A DNA stretch of 64,000 nucleotides from Anas platyrhynchos (taxonomy: Eukaryota; Chordata; Aves; Anseriformes; Anatidae): contig NC_092601.1 of the NCBI RefSeq assembly GCF_047663525.1, forward strand, positions 15,213,501-15,277,500. Reading direction: 5' to 3'. Numbering within the stretch: position 1 is the first letter of the stretch; every line of letters begins with the position of its first letter. The notes under the pieces are model-generated. The model was not told the DNA's origin. It ran no database searches and was given only the letters and a program-made list of their open reading frames with translations. This document shows, piece after piece, positions 435-44,932 of the stretch. Made by a program: the position numbers and the translations under genes.

Positions 435-1694
435 ATGACCAAAGCACGGCTCCTCCGTCTCTCTGTGGTGCTGGTCTCCATCTTCATGATTCTCCTGATC
501 ATCGTGTACTGGGACAACGTGGGAACGGCGCACTTCTACCTGCACACGTCCTTTTCCAGGCCTCACTCCCCAGGGGCCATCCCTGGTATCACTGCAGGTG
601 GAGATTGGGAAGCCTTGCCAGAAGTGGATGAATTTTTGGCCAAGCTGCTTAGTTCAAACCTGAAACAGAACAGCTCTACCTCCCGAAAGACAGAGCAGCT
701 GCTCGTCCAGGGCTCCAGCAAGCCTGTGGTGAGCAATTTGGAGGAGAACGTACGGGGCTACGACTGGTCTACACACAATGCCAGAAACAGCTTGGACCAG
801 GAGAAACTGCAGATAGAGAGGCAGAGAACATTGCGGGAGTTCTGTGCCAATTCCAGCTTCGCCTTCCCCACCAAGGAGCGCTCCTTTGATGACATCCCGA
901 ACTATGAGCTCAACCACCTGATTGTGGACGACCGCCACGGCATCATCTACTGTTACGTCCCCAAGGTGGCCTGCACCAACTGGAAACGGGTGATGATCGT
1001 GCTGAGCGAGAGCCTGCTGGACCAGGGGGTTCCCTACCGAAACCCCCTGGATATCCCGCGGGAGCACGTTCACAACACCAGCACCCACTTGACTTTCAAC
1101 AAATTCTGGCGTCGCTACGGGAAGTTCTCCCGGCACCTCATGAAGATCAAGCTGAAGAAGTACACGAAGTTCCTCTTCGTACGGGACCCTTTTGTCCGCC
1201 TCATCTCTGCCTTCCGCAGCAAATTTGAGCTGGAGAACGAGGAGTTCTACCGGCGTTTTGCCGTCCCCATGCTAAAGCTGTACTCCAACCATACCAACCT
1301 TCCCACCTCTGTTAGCGAGGCCTTTGGGGCAGGCCTCAGAGTCTCCTTTTCTGACTTCATCCAGTACTTACTGGATCCCAGGACAGAGAAGATGGCCCCC
1401 TTCAACGAGCACTGGAGGCAGGTTTACCGGCTGTGCCACCCGTGCCAGATAGACTATGATTTTATTGGAAAGCTGGAGACGCTGGATGAGGATGCTGCTT
1501 ATCTACTGCAGCTCCTCAAAGTGGACAGGCTGCTCCGCTTCCCCCCCAGCTACAGGAACAGGACTGCCAGCAGCTGGGAGGATGACTGGTTTGCCAAAAT
1601 CCCACTGGCCTGGAGGCAGCAGCTCTACAAGCTTTATGAAGCAGATTTTGTACTCTTTGGCTACCCCAAGCCAGAAAACTTGCTTAAAGACTAA
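435..1694 (+). CDS. CHST12: Carbohydrate sulfotransferase 12 (chondroitin 4-O-sulfotransferase 2)
   Basis: Transfers sulfate from PAPS to position 4 of GalNAc in chondroitin and desulfated dermatan chains, in the Golgi lumen. The 419-residue protein is a type II membrane protein: a short basic N-terminus (residues 1-8), one hydrophobic anchor (about 9-26), a variable stem to about 140, then the sulfotransferase domain to the end. The 5'-phosphosulfate-binding motif PKVACTNW is at 176-183. The 3'-phosphate-binding region is at about 246-258, with R250 and S258. N-glycosylation sequons are visible at N79, N139, N214, N285 and N375. The length and the C-terminus (FGYPKPENLL) match the vertebrate family, where human CHST12 is 414 residues and also has a single coding exon. 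The start has A at -3, and an in-frame stop lies 30 bases upstream (405-407). The frame is intact with no disruption. CHST11 and CHST13 are related, but the N-terminal and stem sequence fit CHST12. Confidence 0.97.
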   Translation: MTKARLLRLSVVLVSIFMILLIIVYWDNVGTAHFYLHTSFSRPHSPGAIPGITAGGDWEALPEVDEFLAKLLSSNLKQNSSTSRKTEQLLVQGSSKPVVSNLEENVRGYDWSTHNARNSLDQEKLQIERQRTLREFCANSSFAFPTKERSFDDIPNYELNHLIVDDRHGIIYCYVPKVACTNWKRVMIVLSESLLDQGVPYRNPLDIPREHVHNTSTHLTFNKFWRRYGKFSRHLMKIKLKKYTKFLFVRDPFVRLISAFRSKFELENEEFYRRFAVPMLKLYSNHTNLPTSVSEAFGAGLRVSFSDFIQYLLDPRTEKMAPFNEHWRQVYRLCHPCQIDYDFIGKLETLDEDAAYLLQLLKVDRLLRFPPSYRNRTASSWEDDWFAKIPLAWRQQLYKLYEADFVLFGYPKPENLLKD

Positions 1695-30452: not shown

Positions 30453-30458
30453 TTTATT
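30453..30458 (-). terminator. Candidate polyadenylation signal of the GPCR gene
   Basis: The plus strand reads TTTATT, so the minus strand carries AATAAA, 165 bases after the stop codon. It is inside an A/T-rich tract, which raises the chance of coincidence. The downstream GT-rich element is weak. It is the nearest canonical signal seen. Confidence 0.35.
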
Positions 30459-30622: not shown

Positions 30623-31942
30623 TTACAAGGAAGTGTTCTCGCTGGAGACAGTGTTCAGGGGTGGATGCTGGCAAGAATTCAAGCGCCCACACTTGTTCTT
30701 ATTGCCCTGCCCTCCCTGAAACCTCCTGCCCGTGGCAGAGGGTCCTTTCCTCGCAGGCTGCATGGAGCTCTGGTAAGAGAGCAGCTCTGGGACCGAGGAA
30801 CGGGTTGTCCCCTCAGACAGAGAGAAGTTAAAGAGAGAAACCATTCTTTGGTGGTATTTGCTCTTCATCTCCTTGGCTGACCTGTAGAGGTTCCCAACAA
30901 AGCAATAGCATATAGGGTTGAGGCTGGAATTGTTGAGGCCGAGCCACTGGGCAAAGGGCCTGAGCTGCAGGATCCAAGGAGAAGGAGTCACATCCTGCAG
31001 GGACTTGGGGATGTTGAAATCGATCCAGATGTCCATCAGGTAGACGGGCAGCCAGGAGATGGCGAAGAGCAGGACCAGGGCCACCACCATCTGGGCCACC
31101 TTCTTCCGGATCTTCAGCCGGGAGGCCGGCAGAGAGCGGTTCAGGGCACTGCTCTCCTTCAGCTGGCTGCCGCGGCTCCACAGCCGGCGCACCGTGAGGA
31201 AGCAGATGACCATGTTGAACAGGACCGGCAGGCAGTAGAGAGCACAGAAGAGCAGAAAGTTGTAGGCTTGCTTGAGCCTCTCCTGAGGCCAGATCTCCCT
31301 GCAGATGGAGAACACCAGGGGCAGGCCCTCCACCACCCCGATCTCATCCCGTCTGTTCATGAAGATGAGCGGCATGCAGATCCCCGAGGACAGCAGCCAC
31401 ACCACCAGGATGGTGCTGAGGATCCGCTTCTGGGTGAAGAAAGAGCGGGCGTTGAGCGGGTTGTGCACGCTGTAGTACCGGTTCACACTGATGACGGTCA
31501 GGCTGAGGACGCTGGCAGAGACCGAAACGGCCTGGATGAAGGGCACGGCCCGGCAGAGGAAGTCCCCGTACACCCAGGCTTTGTAGATGAGGTTCCCCAC
31601 GGTGATGGGCATGCAGACGCACACCACCATCAGGTCGCACACGGCCAGGTTGATGAGGAGGCTGCGGGTGGCACTCAGGCTGGACGCCCGGCTCGGGCGC
31701 TTGCGAGTGAGCACCCTGATGGACATGATGTTGCCCACGAAGCCCACCACGAAGGACACCAGGTACATGGCCGTCAGGCTGATGGTGACGGGCTCCTTGG
31801 CGAAGAGGAAGAGCATCTTCTCCAGCTCTTCCCAGCCCAGCTCCTGGCTCCCGTTCCACAGCCCACCTTGGGTCTGGTTCTCCTCCTGCCAGAGCTGCAG
31901 CAAGCCGGGGGGGGCCCGGGGGACGGGGGGCGAGGAATTCAT
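30623..31942 (-). CDS. Rhodopsin-class (class A) GPCR, probable peptide receptor, orphan
   Basis: A complete seven-helix receptor of 439 residues in one exon. The N-terminus is extracellular with sequons at N2, N22 and N30. Helices are at about 54-78 (N71), 91-120 (D103), 128-158, 173-195 (W182), 226-251 (P239), 281-308 (P299) and 326-350 (N342-P343-x-x-Y346). C130 and C214 should form the conserved disulfide. The usual D/E-R-Y motif at the end of helix 3 is N154-R155-Y156, and helix 6 has SWLP instead of CWxP. The third loop is rich in Arg and Lys, and the Ser/Thr-rich tail (about 366-439) suits arrestin control. Helix 3 and 6 wording recalls cholecystokinin, orexin and QRFP-type receptors, but I cannot name the gene. 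The start at 31942 has a good Kozak context (G at -3, A at +4); the frame extends seven codons further only through GTG. The 5' region is a CpG island. Confidence 0.93.
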   Translation of the reverse strand: MNSSPPVPRAPPGLLQLWQEENQTQGGLWNGSQELGWEELEKMLFLFAKEPVTISLTAMYLVSFVVGFVGNIMSIRVLTRKRPSRASSLSATRSLLINLAVCDLMVVCVCMPITVGNLIYKAWVYGDFLCRAVPFIQAVSVSASVLSLTVISVNRYYSVHNPLNARSFFTQKRILSTILVVWLLSSGICMPLIFMNRRDEIGVVEGLPLVFSICREIWPQERLKQAYNFLLFCALYCLPVLFNMVICFLTVRRLWSRGSQLKESSALNRSLPASRLKIRKKVAQMVVALVLLFAISWLPVYLMDIWIDFNIPKSLQDVTPSPWILQLRPFAQWLGLNNSSLNPICYCFVGNLYRSAKEMKSKYHQRMVSLFNFSLSEGTTRSSVPELLSYQSSMQPARKGPSATGRRFQGGQGNKNKCGRLNSCQHPPLNTVSSENTSL

Positions 31943-32578
31943 GGCTGAGCCCCCCCCGAGCACCCCGGGCTACCAGGGCAGAGCCTCCCGCGCCGCACCG
32001 AGCGATCCTGGCATGGTTACGTGGGAGCAGCCCCGCCTGGAAAAGAGGGTGCAGAGAGGGGGGGTGAGGGCTGCTGCCGGCATTTTCCCCCCGGGGGGGG
32101 GGGGGGGAAGATGCCGGGGGGGTGGTGGTGGTGAATGGCTTCTGGGCAACTTAGTTCAGCCACGGATGTGAGCGGCGGGGAGGGCAGCTGAGATGCCTGG
32201 GGGAGATGGAGTTGTTGTGTTGTTTTTTTTGGGGGGGGTCAGTGCCCAGCCTCGGGGAGCCAGGGTGGGGGCCACGATGCCCCCCGCGCCCCAGCAGAGC
32301 AGCCCCAGCCGCGCAGCCCCGTTCCCCCCCGCAACCCCCCCGCAGTCCTCCCGGCAAAGTTACCTGCCCTTCAGCCCCGGTCCCCTTTGGTCCCCCTCTC
32401 TCCCCGCGGTGCTCCCCGTTTCCCCCCGATCCCCCTTTTTCCCCCGGTTGTGCCCCGGTCGCGGCTCGGCGGCACTCACCGGGCGGGGGCGGGCAGCGGC
32501 TCCCCCCGCCGGCTGCTCCGCCGTGTGCTGGAGGTGCGGGACCCGCTGCCACGGGCACGGGCACGGGCACACGCAGCT
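31943..32578 (-). promoter_or_regulatory. CpG-island promoter region of the GPCR gene
   Basis: Dense CG dinucleotides and GC-rich sequence surround and precede the start codon, and no TATA box was seen in it. It includes a G15 run (32093-32107), a T9-G8 run (about 32222-32238) and a block of C runs at 32393-32457 that is G-rich on the coding strand. The transcription start is not determinable by eye. A 5' UTR exon could exist within or beyond this block. Confidence 0.6.
32549..32570. repeat. (GGGCAC)n hexamer tract
   Basis: Three to four GGGCAC units immediately precede the left pentamer arm and share its GGCAC core, so the two may have a common origin by slippage. Confidence 0.75.
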
Positions 32579-32790
32579 TGGCACGGCTCAGCTCGGCTCG
32601 GCTCGGCTCGGTGCGGCTGGACACGGCTGGACACGGCTCGGCACGGCTCCGGGCGGCACGGCTCGGTACGGCTGGGCACGGTTCAGCACGGTTCGGTGCA
32701 GCTCGGCATGCACGGCACGGCTCGGCTGGGCACGGCACGGCTTGGCTGGGCACGGCACGGCTGGGCACGGCTCGGCACAGCTCGGCACAC
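32579..32790 (+). repeat. Pentamer array, left arm (GGCAC/GGCTC units)
   Basis: About 212 bases built from degenerate 5-bp units, mainly GGCAC and GGCTC with variants GGCTG, GGTTC and AGCTC. These are the reverse complements of the units in the right arm, so the two arms form an imperfect inverted repeat around a spacer of about 300 bases. It lies about 640 bases upstream of the GPCR start codon. The long frames read through it are artefacts of the stop-free unit. Confidence 0.9.
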
Positions 32791-33093
32791 CCAGCCCCGT
32801 CCTGCCCCCCCGAGCTGTGCGCGGCCGCACCCGGCGCTGCGTGCAGACCCCGCTGCGCTCTCCCGGTCCATGCCCCCCTCCAAAGCGCACACCGGGGTGC
32901 AGCCCCCCTTTAGCCCCCCCACCCCGCACCGCCCCCCTCTGCACACCCGCCCCGCACCCCCTCGGGCTCCTCCCGTCCTCCCCTCTCCCCGTGCACCCCC
33001 CCGCCGGCACGGATCTCCCTTGGCACCCCCTTGGCACCCGCACGGCACCCCCCGATTGTCCTCTGCTGGGACCGTTGGCTCGCTTCGAGACGA

Positions 33094-33674
33094 ACCGTGC
33101 CGAGAAAATGCCGAGCCGAGCCGTGCCGACCTGTGCCGAGCCGTGCCAAACTGAGCCGTGCCGTGCCAAACCGTGCCGAACCGTGCCGAACCGTTCCAAA
33201 CCGTGCCGTGCCGTGCCGAGCCGTGCCGAGCCGTGCCGAGCCGTGCCGAGCCGTGCCAAACCGAGCCGTGCCGTGCCGTGCCGTGCCGTGCCGTGCCGAG
33301 CCGTGCCGTGCCGTGCCAAACCGTGCCGAGCCGTGCCAAACCGTGCCGTGCCGAGCCGTGCCGTGCCGTGCCGAGCCGTGCCGAGCCGTGCCGAGCCGTG
33401 CCGTGCCGTGCCGAGCCGTGCCAAACCGAGCCGTGCCGAGCCGTGCCGAACCGTGCCGAGCCGTGCCGTGCCGAGCCGTGCCAAACCGAGCCGTGCCAAA
33501 CCGAGCCGTGCCGAGCCGTGCCGAACCGTGCCGAGCCGTGCCGTGCCGAACCGTGCCAAACCGAGCCGTGCCGTGCCGAGCCGTGCCGAACCGTGCCAAA
33601 CCGTGCCAAACCGAGCCGTGCCAAACCGTGCCAAACCGTGCCGTGCCAAACCGAGCCGTGCCGAGCCGTGCCGG
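33094..33674 (+). repeat. Pentamer array, right arm (CCGTG/CCGAG/CCAAA units)
   Basis: About 580 bases, roughly 115 units of 5 bp: CCGTG tends to alternate with CCGAG, CCAAA or CCGAA, giving a loose 10-bp higher-order period. The array lacks TAA, TAG and TGA in every frame on both strands, which produces frames of over 300 codons reading as Pro, Cys, Arg, Ala and Ser runs. No conserved protein is encoded. Such arrays are prone to length change and assembly collapse. Confidence 0.95.
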
Positions 33675-43129: not shown

Positions 43130-44932
43130 CTAGTAAAGGCCTCGTTTGGTGATTTCCACTGAAGAAATGGTGATATCGTTGAGAATCTGCAGCTTGGTGA
43201 TGGATGAGAGCTGTTTTTGCCGATGCTTGTACTGCAAGATTTTGTGTTCATCAATGAAAATGTGGAAATAATCGTGGTCGGAGTAGATTTCCACCTGCAA
43301 GAGAGACTGTGTTAGGCTCACTGGGTGGACACATGTCCTCACCAGGCTTGCTGTCATGAGCACTCACGTGAGGGCAAGTGCTTCTAAGATATACTGCAAA
43401 TCCTCCCCAAAATGACATGTGGACAGGACACATTTTTGTTGTGTAAAAGGAAGGAATAGCTGAATTCTTTGTTTTCTGACAGCAGAAACTGTTGATAACG
43501 CAAAGCTTAAATTGGTGACAACTGCAGCATCCAGGGATTATTGCTGGAGCTGTGCATGCCTGTGCTAGAGCTGGGTATAAGTCAGCAGCAAAATCAGGGG
43601 ACAGAGCCGGAGAGGGCACATTACTGGGTATGGGGCTGGCTAGCTCCCTGAGGAAGACCCTGGTATTTTCTGTGTCCCTTTGTCCCACCCATGGACATCT
43701 GTGGTGTGATGCAGGGCTACCTGGAAGGGCTCCTTTGCTTCGAAGGGGAAGGTGCTGTTAACCTCTTCCCTCCCCCAGTGGTTGGCCAGGAAGGAGTTGC
43801 AGACAATCCTGGAGCTGGCGAAGCGGGGGTTAAAGTGGAAAGCAATTTGGTCTCCAGGATAACTGAGGAAATTAATTTCAAACCTAAAAGAGAAAGAGAT
43901 GATGGGGAGCCGTGGAGCGGCACCACTGGATCCTGAGAGCCGGGGGAGCTGCAAGCAGCTCGTGGCCTTACATGCTTGTGCTGGAGCTGGTTTCGCCCTT
44001 GACCACGACGCTCCAGCCGGGACACATCCCCTCAGGGTACAGGGCCTCGAACTGCCAGCAAGGAGGTGATGGTGAGGCACGGCACAGCGGGGAGCTGAGT
44101 GTCACCAGCTCGTCCCCAGACACTTCTCCATCTTTATCACCCTCTTCCCTTTTCTCCCCATTCCCATATAGACATGCTCTCAATCCCTTGCTCTTTTTTG
44201 ACTCCTAAATAAGCTCAGGGACTTGCATTATATATATATTATATATAGTGTGTGTATATATATATAAAAATATACATATATATAGTGTGTGTGTGTGTAT
44301 ATATATATATATAGTATTTCTGCTCCCTGATTCCATCCAGGTCTCTATAAAAGACCTCGGGCAGCAAATCCCACCCAGCACAAAGACACCCTGCTTCTTC
44401 TCCCCTCCTGGACAATGCAAAATCTGAAGCAAGCTAAGCAGAGAACTTGGTGGTGCTCTGAAAAAACAAGGACTGATAAAGGAATGAGAGTAACGTGGCA
44501 CCCAGCCCGTCCCCATCCAGCAGTAGGCAGAGGACCCTTCCCGAGAGCTCCTGCCTGTTCCTGTTCCACCTGCTCCCCCCATCTCCAAGGTTAAACTTGT
44601 ACAGAACGAGCTGGAAAATGTTCCTTTTTGAATAATTCATAGTTTTATTAAATAACTCATTTTAATAAGAAGTGCTTGCCATTTCACCCCGCACTTTTTA
44701 GCACTTTAATGATTTTGCACTTCTGAGCATCTCCCTTTCCCAAACTCACTGCTTGTGCTCGGAAAATCTCTCCAGCTCTGGCATTCCTACTGCCAGCTCC
44801 GTGCCTGGCTCCTGGTCCCTATAGCTCAGCGCTCCTGCACCCCTTGCCTTTCTCTGCCACAGTTTCCCATTTCCAATGCATTTTGGGGATGTGCAGGTTA
44901 AGCACATCCCCGGCACTTACCCGCAGTGCCAT
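43130..44932 (-). CDS. GRIFIN: GRIFIN, galectin-related inter-fiber protein (four coding exons)
   Basis: Lens-fiber galectin with one carbohydrate-recognition domain, cytosolic. The coding exons on the minus strand are 44932-44921 (MALR), 44051-43972, 43883-43721 and 43294-43130. Introns of 869, 88 and 426 bases all have GT-AG ends (donors GTAAGT, GTAAGG and GTAGCC; acceptors GGCAG, TTTTAG and TTGCAG). Intron phases are 0, 2 and 0; the second splits an ATG codon. The joined frame is 139 residues with no disruption, the family length. The sugar-site residues H47, N49, R51, N60, W67 and E70 are kept, but the final galectin Arg is V72. The protein ends KRGLY, as I recall for chicken GRIFIN. The start has A at -3 and G at +4, and a TATA box lies about 50 bases upstream. 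Neighbouring CHST12 and the expected LFNG agree with synteny at human 7p22. Confidence 0.96.
44228..44314. repeat. Compound (TA)n/(TG)n microsatellite in GRIFIN intron 1
   Basis: Alternating TA runs broken by two GTGTGT blocks, about 87 bases long, all within intron 1. Both TA and TG runs alternate purine and pyrimidine, so the tract could unwind or adopt Z-form, and it should be highly variable in length. Confidence 0.9.

Follow-up and report, generated by a model that had tools for sequence, protein, structure and literature searches.

An intact orphan class A receptor with NRY at the DRY position in the genome of Anas platyrhynchos

The window analysed here, a stretch of 64,000 nucleotides of the Anas platyrhynchos genome (bases 15213501-15277500 of contig C15; genome of 1.26 Gb in 42 contigs), carries on its minus strand the gene of a real, intact orphan receptor, probably of a clade that has already been named but is unstudied. 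Judging from its sequence, this gene is likely to encode a working class A receptor of the neuropeptide type, activated by a ligand and belonging to an ancient clade of vertebrates standing beside the cholecystokinin (CCK), orexin (OX) and NPFF receptors, with GPR195 as its most likely identity. We report its frame, its family neighbourhood, its genomic place and its motif letters as they are observed; how it works is deduced from them, and the most likely reading is that of an ordinary ligand-gated peptide receptor in which two microswitch residues are changed.

An Uninterrupted Receptor Frame in a Conserved Gene Block

The frame, read on the minus strand from 31942 to 30623, contains no internal stop over its 439 codons. 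It is given below with its signature residues and its possible 3' end.

30623..31942, minus strand: frame encoding the orphan class A receptor, ATG to TAA, 439 residues, single coding exon
31475..31483, minus strand: N154-R155-Y156 at the DRY position, 3.49-3.51 (sequence, alignment)
31202..31204, minus strand: Cys247 at 5.58, a position usually occupied by Tyr; register probable (TM5 alignment, census)
31046..31057, minus strand: S296-W297-L298-P299 at 6.47-6.50 (alignment)
30905..30919, minus strand: N342-P-I-C-Y346, an intact NPxxY (alignment)
30453..30458, minus strand: AATAAA, a possible polyadenylation signal, about 165 bases 3' of the stop (sequence)

Residues 70-346 cover the complete Pfam 7tm_1 profile (1-260 of 260) with 149 bits and an E-value of 1.9e-43, and a chance match is thus ruled out. 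As the single-sequence AlphaFold model of the receptor is poor (pLDDT 43.6, pTM 0.28), the assignment of the seven helices is taken from this match. The class A core is kept in the alignment, with N1.50, D2.50, R3.50, W4.50, P5.50, W6.48, P6.50, P7.50 and the disulfide, whose cysteines are C130 and C214; with the profile match and these core residues, the protein is a class A (rhodopsin) GPCR. The earlier note, which had described a complete single-exon class A frame with disulfide cysteines and NPxxY, is borne out by the frame, the 7tm_1 match and the alignment, and the letters that it had read at N154-R155-Y156 and at SWLP in helix 6 are found again in the sequence and the alignment. It had named no strand; the frame is on the minus one.

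Other elements are seen at the borders of the frame. A stretch resembling a 3' splice site, CTCTTTTCCAG, at 32047-32037 on the minus strand, 94 bases 5' of the receptor ATG, may mark the end of an intron that separates an upstream, non-coding first exon from the coding one. The presumed 5' leader also holds an upstream open frame of 14 codons, ATG to TAG (31970-32014, minus strand). Class I PDZ-binding tails obey the rule S/T-X-hydrophobic, which the C-terminus of the receptor, Asn-Thr-Ser-Leu (30626-30637, minus strand), would fit. Two repeat arrays are located 0.6-1.7 kb upstream of the ATG: about 22 copies of GCTCGGCACG at 32576-32788, and about 57 copies, matching at 78%, of the 10-base G+C-rich unit GCCGTGCCGA at 33110-33673. 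The observed/expected ratio of CpG is 0.82 in bin 32501-33000 and 1.22 in bin 33001-33500, and the long open frames running across both arrays look like repeat artefacts. Rfam at gathering scores gives no match in the window, and a control tblastn search against phage records gives none either.

The receptor sits between CHST12 and GRIFIN, inside a conserved gene block, the names of these neighbours being probable.

435..1694, plus strand: carbohydrate sulfotransferase, probably CHST12 (Sulfotransfer_2, 248.9 bits)
43151..43303 and 43703..43885, minus strand: galectin-type gene with two exons, probably GRIFIN (Gal-bind_lectin domain)

The sulfotransferase is taken to be CHST12 from its context. 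The exons of the galectin-type gene, presumably GRIFIN from gene order, reach 59.5 and 36.1 bits against Gal-bind_lectin (cut-off 22.1), and a fringe gene, LFNG by position, is located outside the window (C15:15308748-15317368). In humans, a 7p22.3 deletion is reported to comprise part of SNX8, EIF3B, CHST12, GRIFIN, LFNG and part of BRAT1, and this published list of deleted genes, which is not equivalent to searching the human genome sequence, contains no receptor (PMC12808965); on the basis of this list, humans seem to be without a receptor in the CHST12-GRIFIN block.

An Outsider Beside the Orexin, Cholecystokinin and NPFF Receptors

When the receptor is compared with solved structures, its scores among the best 60 of 485 are 129 bits for OX2R, 127 for OX1R, 125 for GALR1, 115 for KISS1R, 114 for NPFFR1, 112 for CCKBR and 104 for QRFPR. 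The genome's own CCKBR (exons of locus L074) and NPFFR2 (exons of locus L019) were used as a yardstick for these values. At best, CCKBR scores 425 bits against CCKBR and 386 against CCKAR; its range within the family is 367-425, no other family exceeds 159, and the NPFFR2 exons reach 303-427 bits within the NPFF family and at most 113 outside. As true members thus score 303-427 bits and foreign ones up to 159, the receptor, with 129 bits at best, behaves as an outsider to all the families of the solved list.

Taken one by one, the candidate families are rejected. The cholecystokinin family yields 112 bits versus 367-425 between its members, and a place inside its clade is rejected by the AU tests; the NPFF family yields 114 bits at best versus 303-427; the QRFP family yields 104 bits to QRFPR, judged by the CCK/NPFF yardstick since QRFPR is outside the tree. 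For the orexin/allatotropin family, the 129 bits to OX2R are below the within-family range calibrated on the CCK and NPFF receptors, and the family signature E/DRWYAI, reported as DRWYAI in 374/392 orexin-family sequences (PMC6629687), is absent, NRYYSV being found instead. As for the melatonin family, NRY is present but followed in helix 7 by NPICY, where the family has NAxIY.

In the IQ-TREE tree of 28 receptors, the receptor groups with the OX, CCK and NPFF receptors, and inside none of them, at a moderate 84/81, which is below the trusted class of the tree tool. The best tree joins it, weakly, to the CCK receptors as sister (66/48), and its highest identity in the tree set is 30%, to human CCKBR. 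Its terminal branch has a length of 2.55 versus a median of 0.49, a placement of the kind that the tree tool flags as unsure, and the human sequences of the tree are partial, the NPFF rows starting just before TM3 and QRFPR and KISS1R being left out. AU tests reject a pairing with OX2R (p-AU 2.2e-4), with CCKAR (1.3e-5) or with the CCKBRs (1.7e-4) when each is taken alone. With a whole family as its sister, neither OX (p-AU 0.37) nor NPFF (0.42) is rejected, CCK already holding this place in the best tree; GALR1 as sister is weakly rejected (p-AU 0.036).

Human OX2R, searched back against the genome, gives five exon matches of 82-90% identity on contig C3, presumably HCRTR2, and reaches the window gene at 32%. 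As the genome has its own orexin receptor, its own CCKBR and its own NPFFR2, the window gene is an extra receptor. A genome search with the receptor itself, in which 96 of 1312 first-look candidates were scored, yields 97 matches, any other receptor falling outside every count given here. None of these matches besides the receptor exceeds 34% identity, those spanning most of the helices being at about 22-31%; since the candidates scored are the best ones, a close duplicate in the genome is unlikely.

The proposal of an orphan close to the cholecystokinin and orexin receptors holds in part: it stands as to the neighbourhood, now comprising the NPFF receptors, and as to the position outside every named family with a solved structure. 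A named clade to which this gene may belong, GPR195, has been described. Rinne et al. (2019) have listed vertebrate receptor clades without human orthologue, including GPR195, which they place near the CCK receptors and report in 8 fishes, in the coelacanth (two copies) and in 6 sauropsids (PMC6504862). Among the clades in the sections of that study used here, GPR195 would be the best fit for kin, taxa and human absence. It is thus the likeliest name for the window receptor, at roughly even chances, being inferred from these three traits of the published description. The tree place near CCK, OX and NPFF agrees with the published position of GPR195. A literature search on the name GPR195 gives that paper as its sole match, and among the matches listed in searches for the receptor, the clade, the motif and the locus, none is recognised beyond the same GPR195 passage.

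NRY and SWLP in Working Receptors

The motif census relies on 77 of the 97 matches, which represent 75 loci, two loci having two matches each; 72 of the loci are aligned (3/75 give no alignment) and 70 are readable at 3.49 (2 are not). Asp or Glu occupies position 3.49 in 58/70 readable loci and other letters in the 12 remaining ones, as NRY and QRY (three each), HRY (two), VRY, ARY, RRY and FRY (one each). The three NRY loci are the window gene, L051 and L020. L051 combines NRY, NAVIY and CWGP, a pattern typical of melatonin receptors, and we take it to be one of them; L020 is the platelet-activating factor (PAF) receptor, which it matches with 392 bits, the next family reaching 145. Two of the 70 loci, L054 and L058, are receptor-like fragments with a stop right after the DR of DRY, either exon ends or broken copies.

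SWLP is found in 5/55 readable loci of the genome, counting the window gene, and 10/55 have Ser at 6.47; the human GALR1 and NPFF receptors also carry SWLP in the alignment and the structure matches. Neither motif is thus retained as a rarity, NRY being borne by three of the 70 loci, this gene included, and by melatonin and PAF receptors. The earlier note had held both to be remarkable, a view that is not maintained, as both are present in other receptors of the same genome and in known families. Because the same letters occur in known working receptors, NRY and SWLP do not mark the receptor as stuck 'on'.

Precedents are also documented elsewhere. NRY is, with NAxIY, a family mark of the melatonin receptors, in which the change of Asn to Asp/Glu or Ala is described as harmful to binding and activation, Asn being needed for full function (PMC8745360). 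Drosophila Tre1 has NRY as well, an acid at 3.49 being reported in 86% of GPCRs (PMC3848830). Given such precedents, NRY alone adds little.

A Probable Second Change at Position 5.58

In addition to Asn154, Cys247 probably replaces Tyr5.58, which the earlier note had missed. Tyr is found at 5.58 in 25/28 alignment rows, the others being the window gene (Cys), L009 (Phe) and the PAF receptor (Asn); a looser count gives Tyr in 35/40, one of the other five, L026, being misaligned and showing Tyr in the 28-row alignment. The TM5 register is ungapped from 5.50 to 5.58 in the 28-row alignment, and HMMER introduces a one-residue gap versus OX2R and none versus OX1R; the gapped register would put Phe248 opposite Tyr5.58. 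Position 6.30 of the receptor is R279, thus without acid, and R or K is found there in 9/9 OX, CCK, NPFF and GALR1 alignment rows.

Another receptor of the genome has neither the 3.49 acid nor Tyr5.58: L007 (1501-2160), an NPY-receptor relative which is presumably NPY5R, has NPY1R as its nearest solved receptor (116 bits), with VRY at 3.49, SWMP at 6.47-6.50 and His at 5.58.

In receptors more widely, the contact made by Tyr5.58 supports the active state. In simulations of AT1, activation brings Y5.58 close to Y7.53; Y5.58A belongs to a group of five changes which together are reported to inhibit constitutive as well as agonist-induced signalling (PMC8342441). The transfer of this result to the window receptor is weak, because its authors call the Y5.58-Y7.53 approach unique to AT1.

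Proposed Functioning and Alternatives

In the proposed scheme, a peptide ligand would enter from the extracellular side, TM6 would be moved outward by W6.48 and the NPxxY switch, and R155 would then engage the G protein as usual, Gq or Gi being the usual coupling in the neighbouring families. In the resting state, Asn3.49 may hold R155 more weakly than Asp would, with 6.30 also without acid, and the probable Cys5.58 would remove a contact favouring the active state, so that activity would be weakened and not raised. As the two losses would push in opposite ways and the PAF receptor lives without both, we expect signalling that is close to normal and depends on the ligand, without strong constitutive activity.

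According to the earlier note, the loss of the 3.49 acid would lead to constitutive activity or to an altered choice of G protein. We regard this as unlikely, even though neutralising the acid is reported to activate many rhodopsin-type receptors constitutively (PMC8745360) and R279 leaves 6.30 without acid too. The melatonin receptors carry NRY naturally and need its Asn, Asp/Glu or Ala being harmful (PMC8745360), and the PAF receptor also has NRY; 12/70 readable loci of this genome do without the acid, a basic 6.30 is the usual state in all nine rows of the related receptors, and Cys5.58 should act in the opposite direction. The present data do not support the claim of raised basal activity, nor do they refute it.

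Asn3.49, the probable Cys5.58 and the long branch could also be explained by relaxed constraint on a non-signalling, decoy or decaying receptor in which two microswitch positions have been lost. This is quite improbable, as the frame, its start and stop, the disulfide cysteines, D2.50, W4.50, P5.50, W6.48 and NPxxY are all kept, and the PAF receptor signals without the acid and without Tyr5.58. That the gene is a drifted second orexin-type receptor would account for OX2R being the best solved match (129 bits among the best 60 of 485) and for the p-AU of 0.37 obtained with the OX family as sister; it is made highly improbable by NRYYSV in place of E/DRWYAI, by Trp at 6.48 where both orexin receptors have Tyr, by a single coding exon where the orexin receptor shows five or more exon matches, and by the rejected pairing with OX2R alone (p-AU 2.2e-4). 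An assembly error at codon 154, AAC, which is one base from an Asp codon, is hardly credible in view of the intact surrounding frame and of the 42-contig assembly.

Alongside the preferred reading of an ordinary peptide receptor, a bolder one can be proposed, although we give it a rather low probability: a non-mammalian clade of peptide receptors could have permanently replaced both the 3.49 acid and Tyr5.58, rewiring its microswitches as the PAF receptor did independently, and could have kept a peptide ligand that was lost in mammals. An intact peptide receptor without evident human counterpart at the locus would point to a peptide system of birds, perhaps also of fish, whose ligand is still to be found. 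Moreover, a natural N3.49 and a probable C5.58 close to well-studied receptors with DRY and Y5.58 would offer a clean test of both positions.

Comparison With Known Receptor Systems

GPR195 resembles the window receptor by its place near the CCK receptors, its presence in sauropsids and the absence of a human orthologue; its description in the section of the paper used here has no mention of NRY, which the window receptor carries (PMC6504862). The melatonin receptors share a natural NRY with it and differ by NAxIY (PMC8745360), L051 having NAVIY and CWGP where the window receptor has NPICY and SWLP. The orexin receptors (HCRTR1/2) show a similar QAVSVS stretch in TM3, but they combine DRWYAI, Tyr6.48 and several exons, whereas the window receptor combines NRYYSV, Trp6.48 and a single coding exon. 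The cholecystokinin receptors, of which human CCKBR is 30% identical to the receptor, are its weak sister (66/48), and the 112 bits between them contrast with the 367-425 bits within that family. Finally, the PAF receptor (L020) has, like the window receptor, a natural NRY and no Tyr5.58; it is a lipid receptor, and it belongs to another branch of the 28-receptor tree.
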